A stretch of 43,766 nucleotides of DNA. It comes from Thermoanaerobaculia bacterium (GTDB taxonomy: Bacteria > Acidobacteriota > Thermoanaerobaculia > UBA5066). Position 1 is the first letter of the stretch. Every line of letters begins with the position of its first letter. The stretch lies in assembly GCA_022071945.1 (NCBI GenBank), contig JAJVIN010000018.1, positions 1 to 43,766 of the forward strand. Reading direction: 5' to 3'. The notes under the pieces are model-generated. The model was given only the letters and a program-made list of their open reading frames with translations. It ran no database searches and was not told where the DNA came from. A program made the position numbers and the translations under genes. Positions 3,851 to 43,523 of the stretch are shown piece by piece.

Positions 3851-8149
<4,299 letters not shown>

Positions 8150-9096: not shown

Positions 9097-9408
9097 ATGA
9101 CCGCACGCTGGATTGGAGACGTTGCCACCGAAACCGGTCTTTCCCCTCTCGACGTGGCCCGGCTCCTGGCCCTGCAGGGAATGTACCCATACAGCGGCTA
9201 TCTCGAGGATCAGCACGTCATGATGCTGCGCGCCAAGCGCGCCGAGCCAAAGGGCCGGGACGTTCTGGCAACCCAGACGAAGAAGGTCGTCCCGCTGCCC
9301 CCGCTGGAGGAGGAGAAGTCAGCCATCACGTCTCCCATTCCCTCGATGCCAAAGGACGGCTCGGAGGAAAAGACGATGATCCTGCCTCCGATGAACTCGG
9401 GAAGTTGA
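9097..9408 (+). CDS. Small hypothetical protein, 103 aa
   Basis: AAGGAG lies 5 bases before the ATG. The N-terminal half reads like a small helix-turn-helix (IGDVATETGLSPLDVARLLALQGM), followed by a Tyr/Gly turn and a basic helix. The C-terminal 45 residues are Pro/Ser/Glu-rich and probably unstructured (VVPLPPLEEEKSAITSPIP). Its TGA overlaps the ATG of the TonB receptor gene (TGATG at 9406-9410), so the two are translationally coupled. A DNA-binding or adaptor role is possible but unproven. No family is recognised. Confidence 0.65.
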   Translation: MTARWIGDVATETGLSPLDVARLLALQGMYPYSGYLEDQHVMMLRAKRAEPKGRDVLATQTKKVVPLPPLEEEKSAITSPIPSMPKDGSEEKTMILPPMNSGS

Positions 9409-11327: not shown

Positions 11328-11339
11328 CGGAAGGAACAG

Positions 11340-14409: not shown

Positions 14410-14420
14410 GCGCAATTATG

Positions 14421-14471
14421 CGCCGCTGCGCGACGAGCGCCGCTGCGCGACGAGCGCCGCTGCGCGACGGG
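14421..14471. repeat. Three tandem copies of a 17-nt unit
   Basis: The unit CGCCGCTGCGCGACGAG occurs at 14421-14437 and 14438-14454 exactly, and at 14455-14471 with one change (A to G near the end). It lies between the dCMP deaminase start and the end of the MltF-like gene, where no protein is expected. It could be a binding-site array, a slippage product or a variable-number repeat. Confidence 0.9.
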
Positions 14472-14552
14472 CCCGCGGCAGGCGCCGGGGCCGGTCGAGC
14501 GCCGGGATTCAGGGCCGCGCCGGGTGCCCGCGGAAAGAAGACCGGGCAAACC

Positions 14553-16040
14553 TCAAGGCTTGCCGGCGTCCTTTTTCATCCCCTCCCGGTCCGACTGCTG
14601 TGCCTGCAACTGTTCCATGATGAGCTTGTAGCCAATGTAGTACTTGTAGATGTTGCTGACGTAGGTCACCGGCTCGCGCCCCACCCTCTCGGCGACGATG
14701 ACCTCGACGTTGTTGAACCAGACGTTGGGGTCCAGGCCGCGCTGTTCCGCGATCTTGCGCATCTGCGCGATCCGGGCCGGCCCGGCATTGTACGAGGCGA
14801 ATGTGAAGAGCCCCTTGTCAAGCTGCGACATGTTCGGCTCGTCGCCGTAGAACTTGTCGATCATGAACCTCATGTACTTGACGCCGGCGTGGATGTTCGG
14901 CTCCAGCTCCGAGATGTCCCCGACCTTCATGTCCTGTCCCGTCCCCGGCATCAGCTGCATGACCCCGACCGCTCCGACTGGACTCTTCGCGTCCTGGTTC
15001 AGACCCGACTCCTGGTAGCCCTGTGCCGCCATGAGAAGGAAGTCGATCCCGTACTTCTCGCCGTACTTCTTGTAAAGGTTCGCCAGATTCTCGAGCTTGA
15101 TGCGGTTCTCCGCCGAGGTGGCCTCCTTGGCGAACCGCGTGTTCTTCAGGTAGGACGCCAGGAGCTGCTCCCTCTGCTTCGAACCCTCTGGGTACTTCAC
15201 GATGAAGGCGTCCAGTTCGGCTTTCAGCAAGGGGCTTCCTTTCCGGATCGCCGCGGCGATCTCGCCGCCCGCCTTCACCACCGCTCCCTTGTTCACCTTC
15301 AGCTTCGGAAAGACCTTCTTCCAGAACTCGGCGATGTAGTCGTGGGCGGCCGTCGCGGGCACGATGCCGGCATTCACCATCTCGAGGATGTCCTCGGTGG
15401 AGAACGTCGCGGGCGCCTCCAGGATCTTCAGGGGAGCTTTCCCTTCCTTCACGAATCGCGCGTTGAGGTCTTCCATGTCCTTCCAGAACGCCCATGCCCT
15501 CGAGAGGAAGATCGTCTTTCCAGAAAGCTCTTCCAGGCTCGCGATCTCGGGCCCCCCCGGTCCCGTCACGATCACCTCCGACACATTCCGTCGAACCGGG
15601 ACCGTGAAGTCCATCTGCCGCAGCCGCTCTTCCGTGATGAGGGCCGTCGTGGCGACGATGTCGCCCTTCCCCTCCTGGAGGTGCTGCGCGAGTTTCCCGG
15701 CTGGGGTGGGAATCAGGTACACGTTCACCTTGAGGTTCTTCGACTTCAGCTTCTTGTTGAGGTCGGTCTCGAAGAGCCTGAAGAGGTCGTAGATGAGCCC
15801 GCGGGTCACACCCTTGTCGACGAAGTAGCCGGTCTTGGAGTACGGCGTGAGCACGCGGATCATCCGGCGCTTCAGCATGGCATCCAGATCGCCCGTGAAC
15901 GCTTCCTGCAAGCCTGCGACGGCGTGCGTGCCATCCACTCCGGTCTTGGCGGACTCTCGCGGCTTGGAGGCTGGCTGACCCTGTCCGAGAGCGGCTGTGG
16001 CGGCCACGAGAAGGCAAACCGACAAGAGGAGACGCTTCAT
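14553..16040 (-). CDS. MltF-like membrane-bound lytic transglycosylase
   Basis: Cleaves peptidoglycan glycan strands in the periplasm. It is 495 residues. A signal peptide (LLLSVCLLVAATAALGQ) precedes an extracellular solute-binding-like domain (about 55-300: IRVLTPYSKTGYFVDKG, GDIVATTALITEERLRQMDF, LSGKTIFLSRAWAFWKD). A C-terminal SLT domain follows, with the catalytic Glu344 in GYQESGL, then GAVGVMQLMPGTG and FASYNAGP. This two-domain order is that of MltF, where the first domain regulates the second. GGAGG lies 6 bases before the ATG. It is divergent from the C69 dipeptidase gene across 91 bases. No lipobox cysteine is seen, so it may be soluble or held otherwise. Confidence 0.92.
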   Translation of the reverse strand: MKRLLLSVCLLVAATAALGQGQPASKPRESAKTGVDGTHAVAGLQEAFTGDLDAMLKRRMIRVLTPYSKTGYFVDKGVTRGLIYDLFRLFETDLNKKLKSKNLKVNVYLIPTPAGKLAQHLQEGKGDIVATTALITEERLRQMDFTVPVRRNVSEVIVTGPGGPEIASLEELSGKTIFLSRAWAFWKDMEDLNARFVKEGKAPLKILEAPATFSTEDILEMVNAGIVPATAAHDYIAEFWKKVFPKLKVNKGAVVKAGGEIAAAIRKGSPLLKAELDAFIVKYPEGSKQREQLLASYLKNTRFAKEATSAENRIKLENLANLYKKYGEKYGIDFLLMAAQGYQESGLNQDAKSPVGAVGVMQLMPGTGQDMKVGDISELEPNIHAGVKYMRFMIDKFYGDEPNMSQLDKGLFTFASYNAGPARIAQMRKIAEQRGLDPNVWFNNVEVIVAERVGREPVTYVSNIYKYYIGYKLIMEQLQAQQSDREGMKKDAGKP

Positions 16041-16131
16041 ACGAACCTCCGCACGGCTGGAATCTGACCTTTTTCCATTCTAACGAAGGCGGGTTCAAAG
16101 CAGAGTTCTGAAGTAGCATTTCCGCTCTGTT

Positions 16132-21894: not shown

Positions 21895-22470
21895 TTGAGC
21901 ACCGGAATCGAGGATTTCCTCGAGGCGTTGAGGCGCTATCAGGCCCCAGACGCCGAGTCGTTGAGATTCCAGCGGAGAATTCAGAGCCTCGTGGACTGCC
22001 GGAGAGAACAGGCCTTCGACCGGGTGTCCTACAGCCCGGGCCACATCACCGGGAGTGCCTTCATCGTCGACCGGGACGCGGGAACGGTGCTCCTGCACTT
22101 CCACAAGAGGCTGGGAAAGTGGCTCCAGATGGGGGGCCACGCGGAAGGCGAGCTCGACCCTTTACAAACGGCGCTTCGGGAAGGTCGCGAGGAATCCGGC
22201 CTTCTCGACCTCGTGCTTCTGAGCCCGGAGATCCTCGATCTCGACATCCACGAGATCCCGGGCCGTGGCGCGGAGCCCTCCCACGAGCACTTCGACGTGC
22301 GCTATGCCTTTCTGACGGGCCGGGCGTCGGAAATCTCGCACCGCGACGAGGAATCAGACGGCATCGCCTGGTTCGGTTTCGAGGATGCCGTCCAGAAGAT
22401 GAACGAGCCGGGAGCGGCTCGCGCCCTCTCCCGGCTCGGTTGTTGGCTCACGGGAAGCGCTCGGTTCTAG
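21895..22470 (+). CDS. NUDIX hydrolase
   Basis: Hydrolyses a nucleoside diphosphate linked to another moiety; the substrate is unknown. It is 191 residues. The Nudix motif is recognisable as MGGHAEGE followed by LREGREESGL (REUxEExGU intact), with the first acidic residue one position early, as in the GGHxExGD-type branch. The N-terminal ~60 residues are helical (FLEALRRYQAPDAESL) and precede SPGHITGSAFIVD. I start at TTG 21895 because GGGGAGAG lies 4-6 bases upstream. A TTG at 21880 is in frame but lacks a site. The stop interlocks with that of the convergent acyl-CoA synthetase gene in CTAG (22467-22470). Confidence 0.87.
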   Translation: MSTGIEDFLEALRRYQAPDAESLRFQRRIQSLVDCRREQAFDRVSYSPGHITGSAFIVDRDAGTVLLHFHKRLGKWLQMGGHAEGELDPLQTALREGREESGLLDLVLLSPEILDLDIHEIPGRGAEPSHEHFDVRYAFLTGRASEISHRDEESDGIAWFGFEDAVQKMNEPGAARALSRLGCWLTGSARF

Positions 22471-24314
22471 CTCGCGAGCTCGGCTTCTTCCGCCTCGACT
22501 CCGCTCGCCTCCGCGGCGGCGTACATGTCCTCGATGTCCTTCGAGTATTTCTGCGCGACGACGCGGCGCTTGATCTTCAAGGTCGGGGTCAGCTCTCCCC
22601 CCTCGATCGAGAAGTCGCTGGACAGGAGCGTGAAGGCCTTGATGCGCTTTTCGGACGGCTCGTCCCCGTTGACGATATCCACGGCTTGCTGGAAGAGCGT
22701 CCTCACCTTCGGGTGTCTCAAGAGCTCTTCGCGGCTGCGGAACTCCACGCTGTTGGCAATCGCCCAGCTCTCCAGCCGCTCGAAGTTCGGCACCAGGAGG
22801 GCCGAGAGGAACTTCCGGCGGTCGCCAACGAGAACGGCGGAGCTGACGTAACGCATTGCCTTCAGGGCTCCCTCGATGGGGGCCGGGGCAATGTTCTTTC
22901 CATAGGCACTGACAATGATCTCTTTTTTTCGATCGGTCAGGGTCAGGAAGCCATCCTGGTCGAAGCTGCCGATGTCGCCAGTGTGAAACCACCGGTCCTG
23001 GTCGAAGACCTTGTTGGTCTCCTCCGGCTTTCGCCAGTAGCCTTCCATGATGTTCGGGCCCTTTGCCAGGACCTCGCCATCCTCGGCGATCTTGATGGAG
23101 ACGCCGGGGAGGGGCTTGCCGACCGACCCGAGCCGGAAGTCGCCCGGCCGGTTGCAGGTCAGGACTGGGCTCGTCTCGGTCAAGCCATAGCCCTCATAGA
23201 TCTCGACCCCCGCTCCCCAGAAGAACTCGGCCACGTCCTTGGCGAGAGGGGCGCCCCCCGAAATGGCGAACTCGAATCGTCCGCCCAGGCGCGCCTTGAT
23301 CTTCGAGAACACGATCTTGTCCGCCACCTTGAACTGCAGACCGAGGAACCCGGAAACCTGGTGCCCCCTCTCGATCTTGGCCAGTCTTTCCTTACCCGCC
23401 GATGTCGCCCAGGCGAAGATCTTCTTGCGAAGCGCGGGCGCCTGCTCGACCTGGTTCATCACGCGCTGAAGGATCTTCTCGTAGACCCGGGGAACGGCCG
23501 CGAAGAAGTGGGGCTTGACCTCGCCGAAGTTCTCGGCCAGTTTGTCCACCGACTCGGCATAGGCGATGGTGACGCCCCGGTAGAAGTAAAGGTAATCGAC
23601 CATCCGCTCGAAGACGTGCGAGAGCGGCAGAAAAGACATGGCGATCTTGCCGGGCTGGAGCTGCTGGTAGAGGTCGCAGACACCCATGACGTTCGAAACG
23701 AAGTTGCCGTGCGTCAGAACGGCGCCCTTCGGTTCCCCGGTCGTTCCCGAGGTGTAGATCATCGAGGCGAAGTCGCCTGGACCCAGGCTCGAGACACGGT
23801 CCGCGAAGGCCATCGGATCGGCCCTCAAGAGCTGATCGCCCTGCCGGATCAGCGTGTTGAAGGAGAAGACTCGCTCGTGGTGCGGCGGCTCGCCTTCCAT
23901 CAGGATGACTCTCTCCACCGCGGGACAGCGTCCCACGACGTCGAGCACCTTCTTCAGCTCGGTGTGGTTGGAGACCATGACCACACGGGGCTCCGCATCG
24001 CGCAGGATGTACTCCACCTGCGGCGAGAGATAGGTCGTATAGATCGGCACCGAGAGCGCTCCGAGCGACAGGGTCGCGAAGTCCGTCATCGGCCACTCGG
24101 GACGGTTCTCTGACAGGATGGCAACGCGATCTCCCCTGTCGACTCCGAGGTAGGTCAATCCCAGGGCCAAGGCCCGAACCTTACGGCCGAACTCTTCCGC
24201 CGATACCGGCGTCCACTTCCCGTTGACCTTGGATATCAGGAGTTCCGGAACACCACTGGCCACGGAGCTCTGGTAGAAGTCCAGGAGCGTGCGAGGACTC
24301 GTCACACCGGCCAT
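22467..24314 (-). CDS. Long-chain acyl-CoA synthetase (AMP-forming)
   Basis: Activates fatty acids to acyl-CoA via acyl-AMP. It is 615 residues. The adenylation motifs are YTSGTTGEPKGA, the FLPLSHVFER segment of long-chain enzymes, YGLTETSP, DRWFHTGDIG and the hinge-lysine region DRKKEIIVSAYGKNIAP. The FadD15/plant LACS-like architecture has an extended C-terminus with LTPTLKIKRR. GGAGG lies 7 bases before the ATG. Upstream there is a GATAAT box with a 12-bp palindrome next to it, which suggests repressor control. It is a single gene, convergent with the NUDIX gene. Confidence 0.95.
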   Translation of the reverse strand: MAGVTSPRTLLDFYQSSVASGVPELLISKVNGKWTPVSAEEFGRKVRALALGLTYLGVDRGDRVAILSENRPEWPMTDFATLSLGALSVPIYTTYLSPQVEYILRDAEPRVVMVSNHTELKKVLDVVGRCPAVERVILMEGEPPHHERVFSFNTLIRQGDQLLRADPMAFADRVSSLGPGDFASMIYTSGTTGEPKGAVLTHGNFVSNVMGVCDLYQQLQPGKIAMSFLPLSHVFERMVDYLYFYRGVTIAYAESVDKLAENFGEVKPHFFAAVPRVYEKILQRVMNQVEQAPALRKKIFAWATSAGKERLAKIERGHQVSGFLGLQFKVADKIVFSKIKARLGGRFEFAISGGAPLAKDVAEFFWGAGVEIYEGYGLTETSPVLTCNRPGDFRLGSVGKPLPGVSIKIAEDGEVLAKGPNIMEGYWRKPEETNKVFDQDRWFHTGDIGSFDQDGFLTLTDRKKEIIVSAYGKNIAPAPIEGALKAMRYVSSAVLVGDRRKFLSALLVPNFERLESWAIANSVEFRSREELLRHPKVRTLFQQAVDIVNGDEPSEKRIKAFTLLSSDFSIEGGELTPTLKIKRRVVAQKYSKDIEDMYAAAEASGVEAEEAELAS

Positions 24315-24404: not shown

Positions 24405-25610
24405 TCACAGAGGACTTACCGAAACCGAGAAGATATCGGGGTTTCCGGCCCTGATTCCCTCGACGACATCGTCCTCGGGAAGCCGGTCGACCTGGATTCT
24501 CACGCAGGCCGCCTCGGCCCCCTCGAAGACAATGTTCTCGGTTTGCTCGACGTTGATTCCCGCGGAGGAGAGCCTGCTGAAGATGTGCGCGAGAACTCCG
24601 ACACGGTCGCGGTGCCGGATCGTCAACAGAGTGCTCGCGGGCGGCCGCAGGCAGATGTTCACGGCGTTCGGGACGGCTCCCGTGGTCTTGAACGACCGGA
24701 CGATCCGCACCACCTCGGCGGCAATGGCGTTCTGGGCCTGCTCGGTGGACGCCCCGACGTGGTGGGTCCCCGTCACACCGGGCAATTGGACAACGGGGTC
24801 CTCGAAGGTGCCCGTTCCCCCTGAGGGCTCGAGCTCGAAGACGTCCAGCCCGGCTCGGATGCCGCGCGCCTGGATCGCCTGTGTCAGGGCGGCTTCATCG
24901 ACGACCTCGCCCCGGCTCGTGTTGATGAAGATCGCGCCCGGCCTCATCGCGCCGAAAAAGGCCGCATCACACAGCCCCCGGGTCTCCCGCGTGAGAGCCA
25001 GGTGGACCGAGATGACGTCCGATTCCAGGGCCAGGATGTGAATGGTCTCCGCCCGGCGGATCTTCATGTCGGCGGCCTTCGCGTCATCCAGGAACCGGCT
25101 CCAGACGATCACTCTCATGTCGAACGCCTGGGCCCGGTAGACCATCTCCTTGCCGATCGCGCCGAGGCCGACGATGCCGATGGTCCGGCCCGCCAGGCCC
25201 TTTGCCTTGCTGTACTCCGCCTTGTTCCAGACTCCGGCGCGGAGATCGACCGTCTGCTCCACGATCCGGCGGTCGAGAGCCAAGATGAGGCCAAAGGCGA
25301 GCTCGGCGACGGCGATGGAGTTCTTCCCCGGACAGTTGGAGACCGTGATCGCCCGCGCGGAAGCGGCCTTGAGGTCGATCGTGTTCACTCCGGCGCCGGC
25401 CCGGACGATGAGGGAGAGGCCCTTCCCCTTCTCCATCACCTCCGATGTGACCTTGGTCGAGCGGACGATGAGGACCTCCGCCTCCGACTCCTCGAGGTTT
25501 ATTCCCAGCGATTCCCCTTCGAGCTTCGGGTCGTAGAGGACCTCGCACCCGAGAGCCTTCAGGCCGTTCAGACCGACCTCCTCGAACTTGTCAGCGACCA
25601 GTACTTTCAC
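24405..25610 (-). CDS. serA: D-3-phosphoglycerate dehydrogenase
   Basis: First step of serine synthesis, oxidising 3-phosphoglycerate to phosphohydroxypyruvate with NAD. It is 401 residues. The NAD fold carries IGIVGLGAIGKE, the catalytic Arg is in NTSRGEVVDE and the catalytic His is in GTHHVGAS. A C-terminal ACT domain (about 325-401, TLLTIRHRDRVGVLAHIFSRLS) is the usual serine-sensing domain. The compact form without the ~150-residue middle insert is the short SerA type. It lies 33 bases downstream of the DUF1015 gene on the same strand, a pairing known from several bacterial phyla. serC and serB are not in the window. Confidence 0.93.
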   Translation of the reverse strand: MKVLVADKFEEVGLNGLKALGCEVLYDPKLEGESLGINLEESEAEVLIVRSTKVTSEVMEKGKGLSLIVRAGAGVNTIDLKAASARAITVSNCPGKNSIAVAELAFGLILALDRRIVEQTVDLRAGVWNKAEYSKAKGLAGRTIGIVGLGAIGKEMVYRAQAFDMRVIVWSRFLDDAKAADMKIRRAETIHILALESDVISVHLALTRETRGLCDAAFFGAMRPGAIFINTSRGEVVDEAALTQAIQARGIRAGLDVFELEPSGGTGTFEDPVVQLPGVTGTHHVGASTEQAQNAIAAEVVRIVRSFKTTGAVPNAVNICLRPPASTLLTIRHRDRVGVLAHIFSRLSSAGINVEQTENIVFEGAEAACVRIQVDRLPEDDVVEGIRAGNPDIFSVSVSPL

Positions 25611-25643
25611 GGTCTCCTCCGCGCGATCCCGGGACCTCTGCCT

Positions 25644-26873
25644 CTAGAACCGGTGGACGAAGAGCCCAGATCTGAGCTTGGGCTCGAACCAGGTCGACTT
25701 GGGGGGCATGGTCTCTCCCGCATCCGCGATCGCCATCAACTCCGCCACGGTGGTCGGGAACATCGAGAAGGCCACCGCCGCAAGACCGGCGTCGACCTTT
25801 CGCGTCAGCTCGGAGGTTCCGCGAATCCCGCCCGAAAAGTCGATGCGTTTATCGGTTCTCGGGTCCCCGATCCCCAGAAGGGGGGCCAGCAGCCGTTCCT
25901 GCAGGACCGAGACGTCCAGAGACCGGATGGGATCGGAGGGATCGACGGGCTCCTTCGGGGTGAGCCCATACCAGACGCCAGAGAGGTACATCCGCACCTG
26001 CCCCTTCGCCTCGGGAACGGCGCCCGCCCCGGGGCTGACCAGGAAGACCTTCGAGACCTCGGCGAGGAACTCGTCCTTCGTCCGTCCGAAGAGGTCCTTC
26101 ACGAGTCTGTTGTAGGCCATGATGCGGAGCTGATCGTCCGGAAAGATCGCCGCGGGAAACCAGTTCACGGGATGGCCGGGGGCGAGAGTTCCCTCCCGTT
26201 CCAGGAGAGCCTTTCGGGCGCGCGAAGCCGAGGCCGACCGGTGGTGCCCATCGGCGACGTAGAGCCGCGCGATCTCCCTGAACGAGGCCACGAAGAACTC
26301 CGCGTCGTCATCCGGGACGATCCAGAGAACGTGCCCGACGCCGTCCGGGGCGACGAAGTCGTACTCCGGCTCCCCCGCCGTGATCTTCGCGATCCTGGCA
26401 TCGATGGTCGGGCTTGCCCGGTAGGTCAAGAAGACGGGCTCGGCGTGGGCCGACTGGGTCAGAACGTGCTTGACCCGGTCGTTTTCCTTGTCGGCCCGGG
26501 TCTTCTCGTGCTTCTTGATGACGTCGCTGTCGTAGTCATCGACCGAGCACGCGGCGACGAGACCATCCTGGCTCCGGCCTTCGAAGACCTGCCGGTAGAC
26601 GAGAAGCCTCGGCTGCGGGTCTTCGACCAGCACGCCATCGCGGTAGAAGCCATCCAGGTTCTGGCGGCCCCTGGCGTAGACCGCTTCGTCGTAGAGATGA
26701 GTTTCCTCGGGGAGGTCGATCTCGGGACGGCAGACGTGGAGGAACGAGACGCCGTTCCCTGCCGCCAGCTGGCGGGCCTCGGCGGTGTCGATCACGTCGT
26801 AGGGAACCGAGGCCACTTTCGCGGCCATCTCCTTCGGGGGGCGCCCCGAGACAAACGGACGAATTTCTGCCAT
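25644..26873 (-). CDS. DUF1015 family protein
   Basis: The 409-residue cytoplasmic protein matches the DUF1015 layout: start IRPFVSGRPP...VASVPYDVIDTAEARQL, conserved SVDDYDSDVIKKHEKTRADKENDR, the ADGHHRSASASRA motif with its paired histidines, DQLRIMAYNRLVKDL, and an end at PPKSTWFEPKLRSGLFVHRF. The family lies close to serA and/or serC in many genomes, as here. A role in serine or phosphoserine metabolism is likely but I do not know of a settled activity. The ATG at 26873 gives the family start. The ribosome site is weak. Confidence 0.9.
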   Translation of the reverse strand: MAEIRPFVSGRPPKEMAAKVASVPYDVIDTAEARQLAAGNGVSFLHVCRPEIDLPEETHLYDEAVYARGRQNLDGFYRDGVLVEDPQPRLLVYRQVFEGRSQDGLVAACSVDDYDSDVIKKHEKTRADKENDRVKHVLTQSAHAEPVFLTYRASPTIDARIAKITAGEPEYDFVAPDGVGHVLWIVPDDDAEFFVASFREIARLYVADGHHRSASASRARKALLEREGTLAPGHPVNWFPAAIFPDDQLRIMAYNRLVKDLFGRTKDEFLAEVSKVFLVSPGAGAVPEAKGQVRMYLSGVWYGLTPKEPVDPSDPIRSLDVSVLQERLLAPLLGIGDPRTDKRIDFSGGIRGTSELTRKVDAGLAAVAFSMFPTTVAELMAIADAGETMPPKSTWFEPKLRSGLFVHRF

Positions 26874-26980
26874 GCCGCAAGCCTAGCAGTTTCTGCGCTT
26901 TAGGGCAGCCTCCCGGCATTCTTGGCCCGCCATCGTGCTAGACTTTTTCCTCTACGAAAGGGGTCCGGAGACACCAGGCG

Positions 26981-34661: not shown

Positions 34662-36065
34662 ATGCAGACCCCCCAGCGGTCCCGGTTCGTCGAAATGGCC
34701 GGCCATGTCGTGATCGATTCCCTGCACCTGCCGTCGCTCGGGACCGGACTGCTTCTCTCGGTTCCCGTGCTGCTGGCGGTGTTCTTCGCGGCCAAGGTGC
34801 AATCCGGCACGCTGACTCTCGTCAGCCTCGCCGCCCTCTTCCCGCTGACGCTCTACGTCCTCTCGCGCCTCGCCCTCAACGGTCTCGGAGGCGATTCGAT
34901 GGGTGGGGTGTTCTCACAGTCGGGCGGGAGCTTCGAGGATTTGATGCCCGTCTTCGGGCGATTCATCTCGCTGACTCTCGTCTGGGCCCTGCCCGCCGTC
35001 ATCATGTTCGGCTTTTATGAGCCGAAGCTCCGGAATTCCTTCGCGGCGCCCTTCCGGATGGGGGCTCCCGAACCCCCGCCCGTCATCCTGACCCTCTACC
35101 TCGGAACCGGTTTCTTCGTGGGGTTTCTTCTCCTGACCGTGTCCGTGGCGGCCACGAAGTTCACCGATGCCTTCTCGGCGGGTTTCTGGGCGGCCCTGTT
35201 TCAGGGCAGAAGCGGCGAGGTCTTCTTGATGCTCGCCGCCTCGGTGGGCGCTCCCGTCGCGGTCTTTCTCCTCGCCGCGCCGTGGCTCTCGGCTCTCGGA
35301 CAGAAGAGCCAGGGGTTCGCGGCCTTCCTGGCCGGCGTCCTCATCATCTACCTCGTCGGCGTCCACGTCTCGATTCACGGAAAGCTCTGCGGCTTTTTCG
35401 CTTCGGCCGTCATGTCGGGCATCTTGTCTGAAGGAGTCGGTCCGGCTCCACCCGCCCCGGCTTCGGCTCCGTCTCCCTCCGGCAAGGAGCCAGAGCCCAC
35501 GGTCACGATTCCCGGCCGCGACGAGGAGATCCGGCAGGCGTGGGTCCTCTTCGCCCAGCGCCGGTCCGCCGCCATCGAGAGGCTCGAAATCCTGATCGCA
35601 CAGTTCGCCCCCGACGGCCGCGTCCTTCATGCCCTGGCCATGATGCACCTGCAGTCCCAAGACAGCGTGCGCGCGGCTGAGGCGGCCCGCGGGGCCCTGC
35701 CGCTCTGCGCGGCAGCCGGAGACTTCAAGCAGGTCAAGGAGCTTTACGCGGCCTTCTCGAGCCAGGTCCAAGGCTGGGGCTACGACCACACGCAGCTTGC
35801 TGCCATCGGGGACGCCCTGGCTCAGGCGGGCGACATGATGCAGGCGGCCAATGCGTTCGCCTTCTCGCTTCATGCCGACGCCACCGACGCTCGCGCCTTC
35901 AAGGGGCTCCTCAAGTGCGCTTCTCATCTCGCGCAGAAGGGTGAAGCCCCCGATCGCGCCTTGAAGATCTACGAGTTCTTGATTGCCCGCGCCCCCGGGT
36001 CTCCCTTCGTCGAGCACGCGCGGACCGAGCTGACCGTCCTGAAAAAGAGGCTCTCGAAGACCTGA
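34662..36065 (+). CDS. Membrane protein with TPR-like cytoplasmic/periplasmic domain
   Basis: The 467-residue protein has about six hydrophobic helices in its first half (near 25-45, 50-72, 100-120, 140-163, 186-210, 217-245). A Pro/Ala/Ser-rich linker (~250-275) comes next, then an all-helical C-terminal half with tetratricopeptide-like repeats (LHALAMMHLQSQDSVRAAEAAR, IGDALAQAGDMMQAANAFAFSL, ALKIYEFLIARAPGSP). The membrane half resembles no enzyme I recognise. AGGAG lies 4 bases before the ATG at 34662; an ATG at 34658 is in another frame. Repeats of this sort usually hold partner proteins. It is a single gene following metX by 91 bases. Confidence 0.8.
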   Translation: MQTPQRSRFVEMAGHVVIDSLHLPSLGTGLLLSVPVLLAVFFAAKVQSGTLTLVSLAALFPLTLYVLSRLALNGLGGDSMGGVFSQSGGSFEDLMPVFGRFISLTLVWALPAVIMFGFYEPKLRNSFAAPFRMGAPEPPPVILTLYLGTGFFVGFLLLTVSVAATKFTDAFSAGFWAALFQGRSGEVFLMLAASVGAPVAVFLLAAPWLSALGQKSQGFAAFLAGVLIIYLVGVHVSIHGKLCGFFASAVMSGILSEGVGPAPPAPASAPSPSGKEPEPTVTIPGRDEEIRQAWVLFAQRRSAAIERLEILIAQFAPDGRVLHALAMMHLQSQDSVRAAEAARGALPLCAAAGDFKQVKELYAAFSSQVQGWGYDHTQLAAIGDALAQAGDMMQAANAFAFSLHADATDARAFKGLLKCASHLAQKGEAPDRALKIYEFLIARAPGSPFVEHARTELTVLKKRLSKT

Positions 36066-36152: not shown

Positions 36153-39100
36153 TCAGTTCCCGAAGCCGAGCGGAGATCCGGAGACCGTGCCTCCCAGGGT
36201 GAAGATGTCGGCCCTCTTGGAGGCGGGGTTGTTGTCGATTCTGGTGGCGATCGCCAGGACCCGTCCCGCGCCCGAGACGGCCTCGACCCTGAGCTCGAGA
36301 TCCCGGAACTCGGTCCGGATCGGCGATTCGTTGACGCCGAGAACGTCACGAACCACGCGGTTCTGCTGGAACCTCTCGAACGGTCCGAGCGAGTAGACCT
36401 TCTCGCCCAGGACGGCGCCGTCCTGGCCCGAGGCGATCACCTTGACCCGGACGTCCACGCTTTCTCCCTCGACTTCGGCCAGGATGAGGTTCGTCCGGAA
36501 CCCCACGCCGTCCTCGACCGCCGGGAAGGAAGAGGAGACGCGCGGACTCCCCGAAGCGGCCGTTCCGATCACCTCGCTCGACTCGCGCGAGAACGTGCCG
36601 AACTCCTCCGTGATCGGCTTTCCGGGAGCGGGATTGACCGCGGAAAGAGACCGGCCCTTGCTGGGATCTCCGAGATCGATCGGCGTCGACGTCTCGGAGA
36701 CGACGGCGATCGGGGCGAGGGCACCGTCCAGCCGGACCATCCCGCGCGTGTCGTTTTCGATCTGGAAGAGGTCTCCGACGACATCGGGAAAAACGACCGC
36801 TCTGGGCCCCTCGGCCCGCGCCGGAATGGTCACTTCCCGCTCGACCGGCGTTCCAATTCCCTTGTCGGGCAAGAACGTCATCGTGACCTTGATGGCGCTC
36901 CGCGAGAGATTGGTCATGCTCACCCGGGTGGTGTAGAAGGACTCATTGAGTGCCTTCGCTCTGACCGCCGCCGGCAGGAAGGCCGGCAGGGAGGCGTTCG
37001 GCGCGGAGAGCTTCCGAGCGGAACCCGCCACGTCCGTCGCCTGGAAGAGCTCCCCCGTGCGCGCCGCGAAGCTCCCGGACAGGTTGTCGATCACCGTGGC
37101 GAAGGCGGCGACGCTCCCGGATCCGCTCTCGGACACAACTTCTGCCGTTCCCCCATCGAAGCGGACGCCCGGCGGGAAGAGCTCGCGGTCGGTGGAATTC
37201 ACCTGGGTCTTCGAGTACGGCCGGAGAGAGACGAACTTCTCGCCCACTTTCTGCCCATCGACGTTGTAAAGCGTGACCCGGACCCCGGCGGACTTGCCAG
37301 AGGTCTCGGAGAGGATGATGTTCGTGCGGTAGCCGGCCTCGGGATCCCTGAGGCCTCCAAGAACCGCGAAGATGTCTCCGGCCGCCAGCGGGGAGGCGCC
37401 CCTGGCCTGCCCCCCACCTTGCACGCCCTGGCCAGACAGGACGATGGGAATCTCGGCCCCGTAGCGGGCCAGGGCTCCCGAGTCCGATGTCTTGATCGAG
37501 TCGGTCGTGGTGCGAATCGAGAGTTGGGAGAGGTCGGGAGAGCGGATCTCGACCTGCCCGCTGACCCCATCCAATCCGAAAAGTCCCTTCACCAGATCGG
37601 CGAGGGAGTAGGTGGTGTAGGGCGCGAGATCCATCGAGTTCTTCCGAACAGAGGGATCCGTCTGTCCATCCGCTCCGTCCGGCGTCCAGTAGAGCGTGAC
37701 CGTCACCTTCGTTGAGCCCTGGTTGCGGATCCAGGCACCCGAGACGAAGGAGGCCCCCATCCCAGGAGCCGTCACGGCAGATGTCAGGAAGACCGAGAAC
37801 TGCTCGGGCGAGAGGGACTGGCGGTTCGCGCCCGGTCCGGAGGCAGGGAGGGCCTCGTCAAAGACCTGACCGAAAGCCTCACCGCCGGGTGTCTCTGGAG
37901 AGGGTGCGAACACGAGAGTCGTGCTCACGATGGAAGGACTCTCCGCCGGCCGGCGGGACCGATCGACCGCGACCTCGAAAGTCCGCTCCATTCCGGCCGG
38001 CAAGGGAGAGCCGAAGTCTCCGCTCAGGGAAAGCCAGATGCCTTCCGGACCGATTCTGGGAACCACGAGGGCGGGGGCGGTCCCGATGTTTCGGATCGTG
38101 ACCGTCTGCGGAGCTGGATTCGTTCCCAATGGCGCGGAGAACCTGACGACGTCTCCGTCGACATAGGAGAACTTGGCTCCGGTGTCTGGCGCCGAGAAAG
38201 GCTGAACGACGTTGACGAGCACCGGAGAGTCGAGGCTTCCCCCCGCCCAGACGGCTCCGAGCGACCCCGATTTCAGGCCGGGCGAGGCCGTGAGGCTCGC
38301 GTCGAACAGAAGGGTCACGACCACCTCGCCACCCGGTGCCACTGTCTGGACCGAGGCCGGAGAAGGCACGAACAGGCCGGGCGTCCCGCTCAGGTTCAAG
38401 GCTGACGCGGCCCCGCCCGTGTTCTTCAGTGTCATCGTCACACCCGCCGGAGGAGCCGCTCCGAGCTCCGCGACGAGAGCGGGCGGCGGGACGACGACCG
38501 TGAAGGTGGCAGGCGGACGCAGAGCGGAAGCCTGAACCGTGACGGGATCGCTCGGGCACGCCGCGTCCTTCACTGCTCGAATCTGAATGCAATAGGTTGC
38601 GTCGGCGGCCGGACTCGTCGGGATGCTGACGGAAAGGCTCGAGGTCTGAAGCGTGACGGGAGACGTGCAGTCCGCGTTCTCGGAAACCGCGACGAGGAAG
38701 ACTGCTCCGGAGACGGGAGCCCAGGACACGACGATGGGATTCCCCGCCACGACCGGAGCCTGAGGCGCGCTCAGAATCTGAGGAGTCGCGGCCTTGTCAC
38801 AGGCGGACTGGCTGACCAGGAACTCGGCGTCGCCGACGAGGATCCGTCCCGTACGAGCGCCGGCCGAGTTGGAGCTCGCCCGGAATCTCACGGTTCCCGT
38901 TCCAGAGCCCGAGCCTCCCGAGACGATCGAGAGCCACGACACCTGGGGTCTCGCCGTCCACGAACAGCCCGCGGATGTGACCACCGTGAACGAGCCCTCG
39001 GCTCCGTCAGAAGGAACCGAAGAGCCGGACGGCTGCAGGGTGACATCGCAGGGCGCCGCGCCCTGGTTGACGACGACCGTCAGGTCCCGGATCCGGATGG

Positions 39101-41672
39101 TCCCGGCGCGGGGAGTCTGACTGGCGTTCGCCGCCACGTTGAAACGGACGCTGCCACTGCCCGAACCATCAGGCGCGGTCAGGCTGATCCAGGAATCGGA
39201 AGTCGTAGCAATCCAGGGACAGGACGGCTCGGCGGTCACGGCGATCGAGAGCGACGTGGCTCCCGAGTGACTGACGTTGAAGACCGTGGGCACCACCGAA
39301 ATCACGGAGCAAGCGGCCTGGGAAACGGTGAACGTGGCCTCGCCGGCGGTGATGAAACCGCTTCGCACGGAGCCGGAGTTCGGAAGGACGCTGTAGGAGA
39401 CGGTTGCCGGTCCCGAACCCTGGGAAGCCGAGTTGAGGAGGATCCAACTGACACTCGGCGTGACGAGCCAGGGACAGCCGCTGCCCGTCAGGATCGAGAA
39501 CGTCGCGTTCGAGGCCCCTCCCACGCCGAGCGACGCAGATGATGGCTCCAGCATGATCGAACAGCCGCTGGCCTGGGAGACGGTGAAGGTCTGTCCGCCG
39601 GCCGTCACGGTGCCTGTACGGGCAGGGCCGCTGTTGGCGGCAGCATTGAAGGTAACGGTCGCGGGTCCGGAGCCCGAACCGGCCGATGTGAGGGTGATCC
39701 AGGAGGAGTTGCTCGCGGCCGTCCAGGCGCAGCCGGCCCCAGTCTGCAGCGCGAAGGAAAGTCCCGTGGAAGCAGTCGCGGGAACACTGAGCGAGGAGGG
39801 AACCAAGACGGTCGAACAACCACTCGCCTGATTGACCGTGAAGGTCAGGCCCGCGGCGGTCACGGTTCCGCTGCGAGCCGGACCGGCGTTGGCGAGCACC
39901 TTCAGGGAGACGATCCCCGTTCCCGTGCCGGTCGCGCCGGAGTTGATCGTGACCCAGGTCGCATTGCTCGCGGCACTCCACGAGCACCCGAACGGAACGA
40001 CCACCTGGAACTGGAGGTCATCGATCTGCGTGGCACCGACATTCACCGAAACAGGATTCAGCGACGCGACACATCCGACGTCCTGGTAGACGGTGAAGGA
40101 AGCGCCCCCCACATGGATGGAGCCGGTCCTCTGGGACCCGGGGTTTGCGGCCACGTTGAAGGTGACGGTGCCGGGACCCGTTCCGCCCGCTGCCGTCAAG
40201 GAGATCCAGCTGTCTGTGGTCGTCGCCGTCCAGGTGCATCCGGACTGAACGGAAACCGCGAACGAGAGCCCGGTTGCGCCCGTTCCGGGAGCGACCGTCG
40301 AGAGGGGAGTAAAGCTGTACGTGCAGGTGCCCGCCTGGTAGACGGTGAACGGCAAGCCAGCGGCGGTGATGATGCCCGTACGCGGCCCGGCCGGGTTGGA
40401 AGCAACATCGAAGAGGACAGTGGCCGCCCCCGAACCCGTGATCGGAGCATTGGTGTCAGGGGCACTCCTGACGGCTCGTTGCGGCCCCCCTCCCCCGAAG
40501 AGTGTGATCCAGGACTCGTTGGTGTCCGCGATCCAGGGGCAGTCGGTCTGGGTTTCGATCTGGAACGCCGCCCCGCTCAGTCCGCCGATCGGGACGTTGA
40601 TCGAGGTGGGCAGGAGTGCGTAGGTGCAGGCAGGGGTCGCTGCCGAGACGACGGCGCTCGGATCACTGATGACGGTGTTCTCGTTCAGGCTGTGCGGACT
40701 CGTGACGGTTCGAACCCGGAGGTAGTAGGTGGTTCCCGGGGTCAGGTTCGTGATCTGAACCGACGTCTCGGACTTCGAACTCGTCGTCGCGGCCGTCGAG
40801 TAGGGTCCGCCAGCGCTCGTTGCCTTCTCGACGACGCAGTAGCCCGGGTCGGCGGTATAGGCCACCGGATCCCAGGACACCTCGACGCGGGCCGCACTCA
40901 GTGCCAGGGCCGTCACTCCCACCGGGGCGATCGTCTGCGCCGCATCCCAGCCAGGGACCCAGGAGTCCAGAAAAGTCTTCAGGGCGGGGTCGGTCGTGTA
41001 AAGGCCGTTGTAGCCAAAGCCGAGGAAGGGATAGGTGAGGTACTGGAAACCGGAAGGGATCTCCCCGGTTAGGGCGTTCGAATCGACGAGGAAGGAGTAG
41101 AGGCCGGGCAGGTTTCCGATCGCGGGCGGGATCGATCCCGTGAGCCGGTTGAGGCCGAGGTTGATGTTGGAGAGGTTCGTGAGGCTGGCGAGCGAGGCCG
41201 GCAACGGGCCCGTGATCAGGTTGTTGTACAGATTGAGGTCGAAGAGTCCCGAGAGGCCCGAGATGGAGGCGGGAAGGGGACCACTCAGATTGTTGCTCGG
41301 GAGCATCAGGGCCGTGACGGTGCCGGTGGCCTCCGCCCCCCGCGCGGGACCGCCTCCGCAATAGACCCCCGCCCACGTGCACTCGGTTCCCTCGGGACCT
41401 CCCCACCCGGCGTTGGAGATCCAGCCAGGACCGTTCGTCGATGCATACAGATCGAGGAGTGCCTGGCGCTCCTCTGGTAGAACTTGCGCCATCCCGTGGC
41501 TGGAGGGCAACAGAAGCGAGAAGAGTAGGACTGCGAAGGCTCCCGCGACGGAGAGTCTCGCCCTCTGGGCCAGCCCGTCCCGGCCCTCACGGCCAGAAAA
41601 GAGCCTCGAAGGGGAACCTGCCGTCCCGCGGACAGATACCGGCCGGATCTGGAAAACGACGCGAACAGACAT
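36153..41672 (-). CDS. Giant exported LRR-FN3-BACON surface protein
   Basis: About 1,839 residues. A long n-region precedes a signal sequence (LSVAGAFAVLLFSLLLPSSHGMA, split here as two runs around residue 41-60). Then come a plant-type LRR cap (LDLYASTNGPGW, CTWAGVYC) and about five leucine-rich repeats (NLSGPLPASI, NLITGPLPASL, RLTGSIPPAIG) to ~210. A fibronectin III domain spans ~250-345. Seven BACON repeats of ~85 residues (~347-957) each start with Cys and carry a GCSW/GCPW core and an end like FTVxQ. A second FN3-like and an immunoglobulin-like part follow. Four related C-terminal modules (~1280-1839) have the pattern FRTNLILxExxG...GEKxxSLxP. BACON domains bind glycans or mucin-like surfaces, so adhesion is likely. 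ATG 41672 is chosen for GGGGAGG 7 bases upstream; the frame extends to a TTG at 41705. Confidence 0.9.
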   Translation of the reverse strand: MSVRVVFQIRPVSVRGTAGSPSRLFSGREGRDGLAQRARLSVAGAFAVLLFSLLLPSSHGMAQVLPEERQALLDLYASTNGPGWISNAGWGGPEGTECTWAGVYCGGGPARGAEATGTVTALMLPSNNLSGPLPASISGLSGLFDLNLYNNLITGPLPASLASLTNLSNINLGLNRLTGSIPPAIGNLPGLYSFLVDSNALTGEIPSGFQYLTYPFLGFGYNGLYTTDPALKTFLDSWVPGWDAAQTIAPVGVTALALSAARVEVSWDPVAYTADPGYCVVEKATSAGGPYSTAATTSSKSETSVQITNLTPGTTYYLRVRTVTSPHSLNENTVISDPSAVVSAATPACTYALLPTSINVPIGGLSGAAFQIETQTDCPWIADTNESWITLFGGGGPQRAVRSAPDTNAPITGSGAATVLFDVASNPAGPRTGIITAAGLPFTVYQAGTCTYSFTPLSTVAPGTGATGLSFAVSVQSGCTWTATTTDSWISLTAAGGTGPGTVTFNVAANPGSQRTGSIHVGGASFTVYQDVGCVASLNPVSVNVGATQIDDLQFQVVVPFGCSWSAASNATWVTINSGATGTGTGIVSLKVLANAGPARSGTVTAAGLTFTVNQASGCSTVLVPSSLSVPATASTGLSFALQTGAGCAWTAASNSSWITLTSAGSGSGPATVTFNAAANSGPARTGTVTAGGQTFTVSQASGCSIMLEPSSASLGVGGASNATFSILTGSGCPWLVTPSVSWILLNSASQGSGPATVSYSVLPNSGSVRSGFITAGEATFTVSQAACSVISVVPTVFNVSHSGATSLSIAVTAEPSCPWIATTSDSWISLTAPDGSGSGSVRFNVAANASQTPRAGTIRIRDLTVVVNQGAAPCDVTLQPSGSSVPSDGAEGSFTVVTSAGCSWTARPQVSWLSIVSGGSGSGTGTVRFRASSNSAGARTGRILVGDAEFLVSQSACDKAATPQILSAPQAPVVAGNPIVVSWAPVSGAVFLVAVSENADCTSPVTLQTSSLSVSIPTSPAADATYCIQIRAVKDAACPSDPVTVQASALRPPATFTVVVPPPALVAELGAAPPAGVTMTLKNTGGAASALNLSGTPGLFVPSPASVQTVAPGGEVVVTLLFDASLTASPGLKSGSLGAVWAGGSLDSPVLVNVVQPFSAPDTGAKFSYVDGDVVRFSAPLGTNPAPQTVTIRNIGTAPALVVPRIGPEGIWLSLSGDFGSPLPAGMERTFEVAVDRSRRPAESPSIVSTTLVFAPSPETPGGEAFGQVFDEALPASGPGANRQSLSPEQFSVFLTSAVTAPGMGASFVSGAWIRNQGSTKVTVTLYWTPDGADGQTDPSVRKNSMDLAPYTTYSLADLVKGLFGLDGVSGQVEIRSPDLSQLSIRTTTDSIKTSDSGALARYGAEIPIVLSGQGVQGGGQARGASPLAAGDIFAVLGGLRDPEAGYRTNIILSETSGKSAGVRVTLYNVDGQKVGEKFVSLRPYSKTQVNSTDRELFPPGVRFDGGTAEVVSESGSGSVAAFATVIDNLSGSFAARTGELFQATDVAGSARKLSAPNASLPAFLPAAVRAKALNESFYTTRVSMTNLSRSAIKVTMTFLPDKGIGTPVEREVTIPARAEGPRAVVFPDVVGDLFQIENDTRGMVRLDGALAPIAVVSETSTPIDLGDPSKGRSLSAVNPAPGKPITEEFGTFSRESSEVIGTAASGSPRVSSSFPAVEDGVGFRTNLILAEVEGESVDVRVKVIASGQDGAVLGEKVYSLGPFERFQQNRVVRDVLGVNESPIRTEFRDLELRVEAVSGAGRVLAIATRIDNNPASKRADIFTLGGTVSGSPLGFGN

Positions 41673-41861: not shown

Positions 41862-43523
41862 ATGCCGAAGAGACAAAGTTCTTTCGGATCTGCGGCGAAG
41901 GGGCGGCTGTCTGACCTGCCGGCGATCAGGTTCTTCCTTCTGACGACCCTGGTGCTCGCTGGCCCCGGATGCGACGTCGCGAACCGGCAACCCAGAACTC
42001 CCGACACTCTCGTGACACAGGCCGACCTCGATGACGACATCCCTCGGATCGAGGCCAAGCTCGACCGTCTCACCGGCTCGAAGGCGACGCTGAACCGTGT
42101 GACGCTCCTCCATCTTGGGTGCAACTCGAAGCCCCAGCGGATCCGCCTGATTGAGAGTGCGGAGCGGACGCTTTTTCAGGCCGTTCCTTACTGGTTCGAC
42201 GACGAGGAGGGGCGATTTTTCAGGGATCTCATCCGGGCCAAGCGGGAGAGGTCTCCCCGCCTCGACCTCCGAATCCTGATGGACTGGACATCACCGGGAA
42301 CGACGGGCGACCTCTTTGGCACGAAGATGGTTGCCAGCCTCCGGGAAATAACGGGTGGTTCCCTTCTGCTCTGGAACCGCCCGCAGTGGGGACGCCGCTT
42401 TTCTCCTGACATTCTCAGAAACCGGATGCACGAGAAGTTGCTCGTCGCGGACGGCGACAAGCTGATCATGGGAGGAATGAACGTCGGCGAGGGGAACCTG
42501 CAAGGCGGTGCGACGAGGAAGGGCTGGCACGACACTGACATTCTGGTAGAGGGACCGGCGGCGGCCGAGGCTCAGAAAGTGTTCTTGAAGCTCTGGGAGT
42601 TGGCGCGATATCTCGAGTCCGCCGCTCCGTTTCCGGCATTCCGGGAGGAAGAGACGGAATTGTTGCAGAGTCTCTTCTACAAGGACGACGGCCGCTTCAG
42701 CATCCGCCAGATGGGTGACGGCAGGACGATGCTGAAGAAGATCGAGGGCGAAATCCCCTTCAGGCACTACCTCGAGGATCCGGCCTACTTTCCGCCCTTT
42801 CCACCGCGGCCCGACTGGAAGACTCCCGTGCGCCTCATCTACGACAACACGCTCGTCGACCGGAATCCCAGGACCGGCAAGCAGTTCTCGAAGATCATGG
42901 ACACGCTGACCTACTCGATCCGCAAGGCGAAGCGATCGATCTTTCTGTTCATCCCATACCTGACCCCGCATCAGGACTTCCTCGAAGAACTGGTGGCAGC
43001 GGCCAGGAAGGACCGGTTCGTCGTCGTCATCACGAACTCCAGGCGAAGCATCAAGATCGGGGAGATTCCTTGGAAAGCCGGGACGTCCCACTACGGGAAG
43101 CTCCTGGATGGTGGAGTGCACCTCTTCGAATGGCAGGGGCATGACGACCTCTTCGAGATCGAAAAGAGGGCCGGGTGCACCATCCCCGATGGGAACTGGC
43201 CCGGACGATTCATCCACTCGAAGGTCGCGGTGATCGACAGCGACACGTGCATCGTCGGATCTCACAACTTCAACGAGAGAAGCGAGTCCCTGAACAACGA
43301 AGTGGCCGCCCTGTTCACCGACCACGAGATCGCGACCCAGCTCATCAACGCTTTCGTGGAAGACCTCGATCTTCAGGAGGCGAGCCGCACGGTGCCGTGC
43401 GGCGACGCCCTTTTCCAGCGTCCGCAAAGGGTGAAGCGAATCCTCCCAGAGGATGCGGAACGCTACATGCGCGAACACGGAGGCATGGCGAGGTTCCTCT
43501 CGCGCCTTCAGGCGTACATGTAG
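41862..43523 (+). CDS. Exported phospholipase D-family protein
   Basis: The 553-residue protein has a hydrophobic N-terminal segment (LPAIRFFLLTTLVLAGPGC) that acts as a signal or membrane anchor. The cysteine after it could be lipidated, though the lipobox is not standard. Two HKD motifs are present: MHEKLLVADGDKLIMGGMN (about residue 190) and IHSKVAVIDSDTCIVGSHN (about 452). The PLD fold therefore has its full catalytic pair, as in cardiolipin synthases and phospholipases. Length and spacing resemble cardiolipin synthase-like proteins, but the substrate could be phospholipid or nucleic acid. A weak AAGG lies very close to the ATG. Confidence 0.9.
   Translation: MPKRQSSFGSAAKGRLSDLPAIRFFLLTTLVLAGPGCDVANRQPRTPDTLVTQADLDDDIPRIEAKLDRLTGSKATLNRVTLLHLGCNSKPQRIRLIESAERTLFQAVPYWFDDEEGRFFRDLIRAKRERSPRLDLRILMDWTSPGTTGDLFGTKMVASLREITGGSLLLWNRPQWGRRFSPDILRNRMHEKLLVADGDKLIMGGMNVGEGNLQGGATRKGWHDTDILVEGPAAAEAQKVFLKLWELARYLESAAPFPAFREEETELLQSLFYKDDGRFSIRQMGDGRTMLKKIEGEIPFRHYLEDPAYFPPFPPRPDWKTPVRLIYDNTLVDRNPRTGKQFSKIMDTLTYSIRKAKRSIFLFIPYLTPHQDFLEELVAAARKDRFVVVITNSRRSIKIGEIPWKAGTSHYGKLLDGGVHLFEWQGHDDLFEIEKRAGCTIPDGNWPGRFIHSKVAVIDSDTCIVGSHNFNERSESLNNEVAALFTDHEIATQLINAFVEDLDLQEASRTVPCGDALFQRPQRVKRILPEDAERYMREHGGMARFLSRLQAYM

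Follow-up and report, generated by a model that had tools for sequence, protein, structure and literature searches.

Domains of the ASRAH superfamily, among them ASRT (PF07100) and TM1070, are predicted in PMC2739507 to bind sugars, and the sections of that paper dealing with them note dyads and tetrads, among them secreted tetrads linked to amidases and dyads from actinobacteria. A proposal made there is that the secreted forms attach to peptidoglycan or to the glycans of capsule or gum, and the prediction of sugar binding rests on context and on a bound ethanediol. The main text of this 2009 paper contains no word beginning with "Acidobacteri". BACON domains (PF13004) are described in the part of PMC11216935 that concerns them as membrane-bound spacers, and the same part cites earlier work predicting that they bind mucin or carbohydrate. 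Searches of the open-licence literature found no text combining "BACON domain" with "Acidobacteri", no mention of "DUF5719", and nothing for Thermoanaerobaculia in combination with related terms; at least one of 19 papers using the word ASRAH is, to judge by its title, about the domain.

Here we describe a protein encoded in a 43,766-nucleotide stretch of DNA from a member of the Thermoanaerobaculia (the window, by which we mean the whole stretch that was analyzed). It joins a leucine-rich repeat (LRR) head and a BACON shaft to a C-terminal region of about 890 residues, which we call the chassis and which the same genome uses repeatedly under different heads.

Gene and domain organization

In the list of window ORFs the gene runs on the minus strand from an ATG at 41672 to a stop at 36153, and a Shine-Dalgarno-like ggggaggt lies directly 5' of the ATG. 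The frame of 1,839 amino acids agrees with an earlier note on this DNA, which had described a single polypeptide of about 1,840 residues. From the N-terminus, the order is signal region, LRR cap, LRRs, FN3 domain, seven BACON repeats, FN3-like domain, two Ig-like domains, modules A-B-C-D and tail:

36153 to 41672, minus strand: whole gene, single ORF, 1,839 aa plus stop
41484 to 41672, minus strand: putative long N-terminal signal peptide region, residues 1-63 (hydropathy, by inspection only)
41358 to 41477, minus strand: LRR N-terminal cap, residues 66-105, with C98 and C105 (LRRNT_2, below cut-off)
40965 to 41318, minus strand: plant-type LRRs, residues about 119-215, flank to 236 (below Pfam cut-offs; phmmer)
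40632 to 40934, minus strand: FN3 domain, residues about 247-347 (PF00041)
40326 to 40628, minus strand: BACON repeat 1, residues 349-449 (this and the next six from Pfam and Cys positions)
40074 to 40325, minus strand: BACON repeat 2, residues 450-533
39819 to 40073, minus strand: BACON repeat 3, residues 534-618
39564 to 39818, minus strand: BACON repeat 4, residues 619-703
39312 to 39563, minus strand: BACON repeat 5, residues 704-787
39051 to 39311, minus strand: BACON repeat 6, residues 788-874
38805 to 39050, minus strand: BACON repeat 7, residues 875-956
38478 to 38804, minus strand: chassis domain 1, FN3-like, residues 957-1065 (AlphaFold model and alignment; no Pfam match over cut-off)
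38193 to 38477, minus strand: chassis domain 2, PapD/ASH-like Ig, residues 1066-1160 (structure search)
37899 to 38183, minus strand: chassis domain 3, Ig-like, residues 1164-1258 (hhalign to domain 2)
37428 to 37811, minus strand: chassis module A, residues 1288-1415 (hhalign to module C)
37029 to 37382, minus strand: chassis module B, ASRAH-like, residues 1431-1548 (hhalign to module D; ASRAH profile)
36645 to 36995, minus strand: chassis module C, ASRAH-like, residues 1560-1676 (structure match to 2ii7; ASRAH profile)
36177 to 36536, minus strand: chassis module D, ASRAH-like, residues 1713-1832 (structure match to 1nc7; ASRAH profile)
36156 to 36176, minus strand: C-terminal tail ending GFGN, residues 1833-1839 (count of xGF/GFGN ends)

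A hydrophobic segment spans residues 38-55 or so, with a 15-residue hydropathy mean of 2.43 at residues 41-55. Among the 31 ORFs placed on the tree described below, 25 have a hydrophobic segment within their first 130 residues, compared with 86 of 1,550 internal windows. The first cysteine is residue 98, so a lipobox cysteine after the signal peptide is absent, and no cysteine occurs beyond residue 1039. The earlier description of an exported multidomain polypeptide is supported, as is a long string of beta-sandwiches, and the protein is probably exported.

The LRR and BACON parts lie in one open frame and do not come from separate genes, an outcome that would have spoken against the earlier note. 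Fusion of an LRR head to the chassis within one ORF recurs in further copies of the same genome (L055, L059, L061 and L064) and of related genomes (L040, L043 and L046); we therefore reject a two-gene chimera or frame artefact.

No operon partner of the gene is apparent from the ORF layout of the window. A divergent neighbor on the plus strand (41862 to 43523) has PLD-like domains, and a TonB-dependent receptor adjoining an M28 peptidase with PDZ and PA domains is found at 9405 to 13211, plus strand. Five further plus-strand frames, putative genes of 467-664 amino acids (5683 to 7410, 14418 to 16064, 22119 to 24110, 25002 to 26900 and 34662 to 36062), have no Pfam match at E-value cut-offs of 0.001 or 0.0001.

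The LRR-FN3 head and the BACON shaft

The plant-type LRR cap and repeats recognized in the earlier note are supported by phmmer, in which the window protein matches plant LRR receptor ectodomains with E-values down to 2.6e-71, though in the HMMER comparison with Pfam that the note had proposed the LRR models fall short of their cut-offs (LRR_8 21.9 bits against 27, LRR_1 19.5 against 20.6, LRRNT_2 16.5 against 20.7). The FN3 domain (PF00041, 31.5 bits, cut-off 25) and the BACON repeats pass the same comparison. LRRNT_2 exceeds its cut-off in copies L061 and L046. Four repeats can be counted in the window protein by eye and two by a strict motif search. Plant-type LRR proteins, among which we count receptor ectodomains and bacterial LRR proteins, share with it, besides the phmmer similarity to a plant receptor, a repeat length of about 24 residues, the GxxP motif and a CxWxGVxC cap. 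The window protein differs in having about four repeats and no kinase, and in the FN3 domain that directly follows its LRRs. The type III effectors XopAE, XopAC and XopL, considered from NCBIfam (best 18.1 bits, cut-off 600), were rejected as LRR likeness only. In one relative (L025), an open frame of 406 amino acids matches just the LRR-FN3 part, at 49%; this frame may be a head free of any chassis.

The seven Cys-starting BACON repeats of the earlier note also stand: PF13004 scores 128.4 bits over the whole protein (cut-off 25) in seven stretches. The repeats open at Cys349, 450, 534, 619, 704, 788 and 875, and in all seven a second cysteine lies 28-30 residues downstream of the first. Because every BACON repeat has two cysteines and none occurs after residue 1039, a disulphide-braced shaft on a cysteine-free foot is likely. 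The array resembles those of BACON (PF13004) and BACON_2 in its seven stretches, which together exceed the Pfam cut-off, and differs from them in having two cysteines in every repeat and no lipobox, in sitting between a head and the chassis, and in belonging to a protein from Acidobacteriota. The glycan-binding shaft suggested earlier is not supported; we set it aside on the literature, namely the part of PMC11216935 that deals with BACON.

The C-terminal chassis

The last ~890 residues consist of an FN3-like domain, two PapD/ASH-like Ig domains and four modules in the arrangement A-B-A'-B' (modules A to D). The FN3-like and two Ig-like domains, at residues 957-1258, had been overlooked in the earlier note. 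Chassis domain 2 resembles PapD-type chaperones and HYDIN/SPD-2 domains in structure searches (Z about 9.5-11.5), and 2qsv matches this first Ig domain both by sequence (E 0.026) and by structure (Z 10.4). Domain 3 is aligned to domain 2 by hhalign at 90.7% (E 1.3e-6). The AlphaFold model of the whole chassis has a pLDDT of 85.6 and a pTM of 0.84, and that of modules C and D has values of 89.9 and 0.88. Foldseek matches of the whole chassis, which are strings of Ig domains at TM about 0.1-0.3, were not used.

The four C-terminal modules had been described as related to each other, and their profiles indicate that the relationship alternates. Modules A and C are aligned by hhalign at 96% (E 3.9e-9; the score is 54, and five controls with shuffled columns stay at or below 16.9), and modules B and D at 99.8% (E 1.6e-27, score 152, five column-shuffled controls at or below 13.7). 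The remaining pairs are weaker (C and D 45%, A and D 27%, A and B 14%, B and C 11%; shuffled controls at or below 1.9%). To judge from these alignments, the arrangement probably arose by duplication of a two-module unit. The further suggestion that the modules form an unnamed family is supported as well. In NCBIfam, none of 21 chassis members matches at E<=0.01, and Pfam gives only sparse, weak matches: at E<=0.1, three of the 21 match DUF5719 (best 1.9e-4) and one matches ASRT (0.053, short of the Pfam cut-off of PF07100), while three further families match one member each, at chance level.

Similarity of the modules to ASRAH domains

The structure prediction proposed in the earlier note was made for modules C and D. 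When modeled as a pair, both are predicted to be eight-stranded beta-sandwiches like TM1070. The predicted module D matches TM1070 (1nc7) at Z 10.8, with an rmsd of 2.5 over 107 aligned of 116 residues, and module C matches ASRT (2ii7) over 100 aligned residues with an rmsd of 3.6 and a Z of 8.6, a value that barely exceeds the best Z of 7-8 which the tool usually gives where there is no clear match. The next chain outside the TM1070/ASRT pair has a Z of 5.8. Foldseek reports 1nc7 at E 9.2e-4 and probability 1.00, ranked below five other chains by E-value; the chain in its top row, RbmA, has a TM of about 0.2 and was taken for a chance match despite its better E-value. A sequence search of solved structures with modules C and D gave nothing under E 0.2.

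Profile comparisons were made with four PF07100 members alone (C 60.3%, B 8.1%, A 1.3%, D 0.2%) and with a profile enlarged by 11 domains, with limits set by eye, from three proteins of the phylum; here B reaches 95.2%, C 93.4%, D 85.7% and A 3.1%. Comparing the 11 added domains themselves with the four PF07100 members gives 97.2%. Against the enlarged profile, the three FN3 and Ig domains of the chassis, used as controls, stay at or below 0.8%, and shuffled scores stay at or below 18.2, compared with 37-49 for the real matches. Module A reaches only 3.1-7.7% against the ASRAH profiles directly and is linked to them through module C. The source proteins of the added domains (L123, L124 and L125) have repeated domains and were found through weak PF07100 matches; domain starts of a WxFAEG type occur in L124 and L125. 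PF07100 itself matches no place in the genome of the window at E<=0.001.

At the level of single residues, N1588 of module C aligns with the ASRT asparagine at the end of strand 2 and is invariant in 21 of 21 members. N1317 of module A, equally invariant, lies in the matching strand, and an invariant glutamate (E1456 in B, E1733 in D) stands where ASRAH domains have asparagine, both placements being made by module homology. The strand-1 tryptophan of ASRAH domains is missing from all four modules. Because of this missing tryptophan and the glutamate for asparagine in B and D, we call the modules ASRAH-like rather than canonical members; on predicted fold and profile relationship, they may form a new family within or beside the ASRAH superfamily.

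With the superfamily as described in the relevant sections of PMC2739507, the chassis shares the beta-sandwich fold, the profile relationship of B, C and D, the strand-2-end asparagine in C and probably A, and the arrangement as a tetrad in proteins that carry a signal segment and are probably secreted. It differs in its two alternating module types and in their position behind FN3 and Ig domains and exchangeable heads. The weak DUF5719 (PF18986) matches are likewise a point of similarity. We take DUF5719 to be the actinobacterial ASRAH dyad. In the genome of the window, 9 of 12 DUF5719 places at E<=0.1 overlap places found with the chassis profile; on the other side, one place only passes the DUF5719 cut-off, and this jointly with its neighbors in the frame.

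Re-use of the chassis under different heads

In the genome of the window, 66 places match the whole window protein, and the four-module profile finds 57 places at E<=1e-5, and in 20 of these the match covers nearly the entire profile (from profile position 10 or earlier to position 516 or later, of 533). The whole ~890-residue chassis was aligned in 12 own-genome copies, the window protein included. The heads of 19 of the 20 near-full copies (the C31 copy was left out) were assigned with Pfam: LRR in five, BACON in seven, NHL in three, He_PIG and FG-GAP in two each, and Lectin_C, PKD and an InlB-type repeat in one each, with nothing named in three; some copies have several of these, and the LRRs of the window protein were counted though below the cut-offs. 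Twelve copies from relatives have LRR in three cases (one with BACON), nothing named in four, and in one case each BACON, NHL, PKD, a GH5-like domain (Cellulase, 24.6 bits against a cut-off of 23.5) and a propeller of the Vgb (virginiamycin-lyase) type.

A tree of the chassis has 31 rows; 34 ORFs were found initially, and four (L052, L053, L054 and L069:708-1730) were kept off it. At least 16 changes of head are needed on this tree. The clade of eight rows that includes the window protein (starred in the tree) consists entirely of own-genome copies and has LRR, BACON, lectin, Ig-type and nameless heads.

Several copies show further features. The protein at L061:5229-15530 has 3,434 amino acids, with BACON in 14 stretches, FN3 in three and LRRs in several blocks, and its head cassette seems to be repeated in tandem. 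A chassis protein topped by a C-type lectin head is encoded at L063:5287-9018. Four near-full chassis genes, three with NHL heads, lie close together in L067 and L068 (G000:C26:2133-24575). At L055:17206-17334 (G000:C2:183205-183333), a frame of 61 amino acids shares 70% identity with the C-terminal 43 residues of the window protein and is perhaps the remnant of a decayed chassis.

In a sample drawn evenly across the phylum, at least 14 of 247 genomes match at E<=1e-10 with the best five or fewer candidates per genome scored; these include the genome of the window, and all belong to its class. Within this class, at least 60 of 147 genomes match at E<=1e-20 (best nine or fewer candidates per genome scored).

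Proposed function and alternatives

We propose, with about even confidence, that the window protein is a modular exported surface protein, one of a set in which varied heads stand on a glycan-docking foot that holds without a covalent bond, with BACON as a spacer. A signal peptide would export it from the cytoplasm. The N-terminal LRR-FN3 unit would be the variable head, probably binding a protein, and the seven disulphide-capable BACON sandwiches would separate it from the foot, a role we assign because PMC11216935, where it deals with BACON, treats it as a spacer. The ~890-residue chassis would be the shared foot and would dock the protein on a glycan, most likely the envelope or capsule polysaccharide of the bacterium itself. 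About twenty proteins of the organism have the chassis, or the four modules of it, below heads of different kinds. Glycan docking is the simplest reading of the foot because sugar binding is inferred for ASRAH domains in the sections of PMC2739507 that treat them. The exchange of heads fits other uses of a shared C-terminus equally well.

One such use would be secretion: the chassis may be a secretion or sorting region for an exporter of the class, with the tail as part of the signal and no need for sugar binding. We regard this as rather unlikely. Its position agrees with such a role, in that the module set ends 0-14 residues ahead of the stop in all 31 tree ORFs (17-24 residues in L052, L053 and L054, which are off the tree), and so does its presence behind unlike heads. 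Of 38 distinct chassis ORFs (module score >=100), 21 have an xGF/GFGN end, compared with 1 of 1,128 distinct ORFs without modules from the same stretches, and the tree shows this end in both of its deep clades. In this count near-identical ORFs were counted once and lower-scoring module ORFs were excluded from either side; as chassis rows are related to each other and the pattern was picked after the ends had been seen, the nominal p-value overstates the contrast. Against a sorting role, 17 of the 38 chassis ORFs have no such tail, and some have basic ends. The type IX domain Por_Secre_tail matches nowhere in the genome of the window, in a search whose control was weak (a match in 1 of 14 genomes, under the cut-off). 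In addition, ~890 residues is far more than in any C-terminal sorting domain known to us.

Basic ends of the RRRAVRR or KKGKK kind, without the xGF tail, were seen in L040, L052, L053, L054, L059, L061 and L065. The genome also has two secretin genes, and nothing ties them to the window protein.

Alternatively, the proteins may be released, with the chassis as a carbohydrate-binding tetrad that targets a substrate and brings the head to an external polysaccharide. The ASRAH-like predicted fold would suit this, as would the relatives with a GH5-like head and a virginiamycin-lyase-type propeller. But among the 31 heads there is a single glycosidase-family and a single lyase-family match, the other named heads being binding, propeller or structural domains, and one chassis for all heads is ill-suited to varied substrates; we consider release doubtful. 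The adhesin of the earlier note, with an LRR protein-binding tip and a glycan-binding BACON shaft, combined here with C-terminal modules private to this protein, has the domain order right and is very unlikely, since the modules occur near full length at 20 places in the genome, BACON is a spacer according to the relevant part of PMC11216935, and other chassis copies have BACON without LRR or LRR without BACON.

The preferred reading of varied heads on a glycan-docking foot can be narrowed to a display system specific to this class of Acidobacteriota, in which the interchangeable heads of about twenty proteins of this genome would stand on an ASRAH-like tetrad gripping the cell's own glycan and xGF/GFGN would serve in sorting or docking. 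The window protein would then be its plant-type-LRR member, and the tail motif would be one not described before. We put this narrower version forward only tentatively, as an improbable one.

Significance

Acidobacteriota are common in soil, and to our knowledge the display of proteins at their surface is little understood. A chassis this large, re-used under unlike heads, would mark exported binding proteins and enzymes of this phylum. It would also allow the sugar binding predicted for ASRAH-type domains outside the cell to be put to the test, and modules that are nearly blank in Pfam and NCBIfam would gain a fold and relatives.
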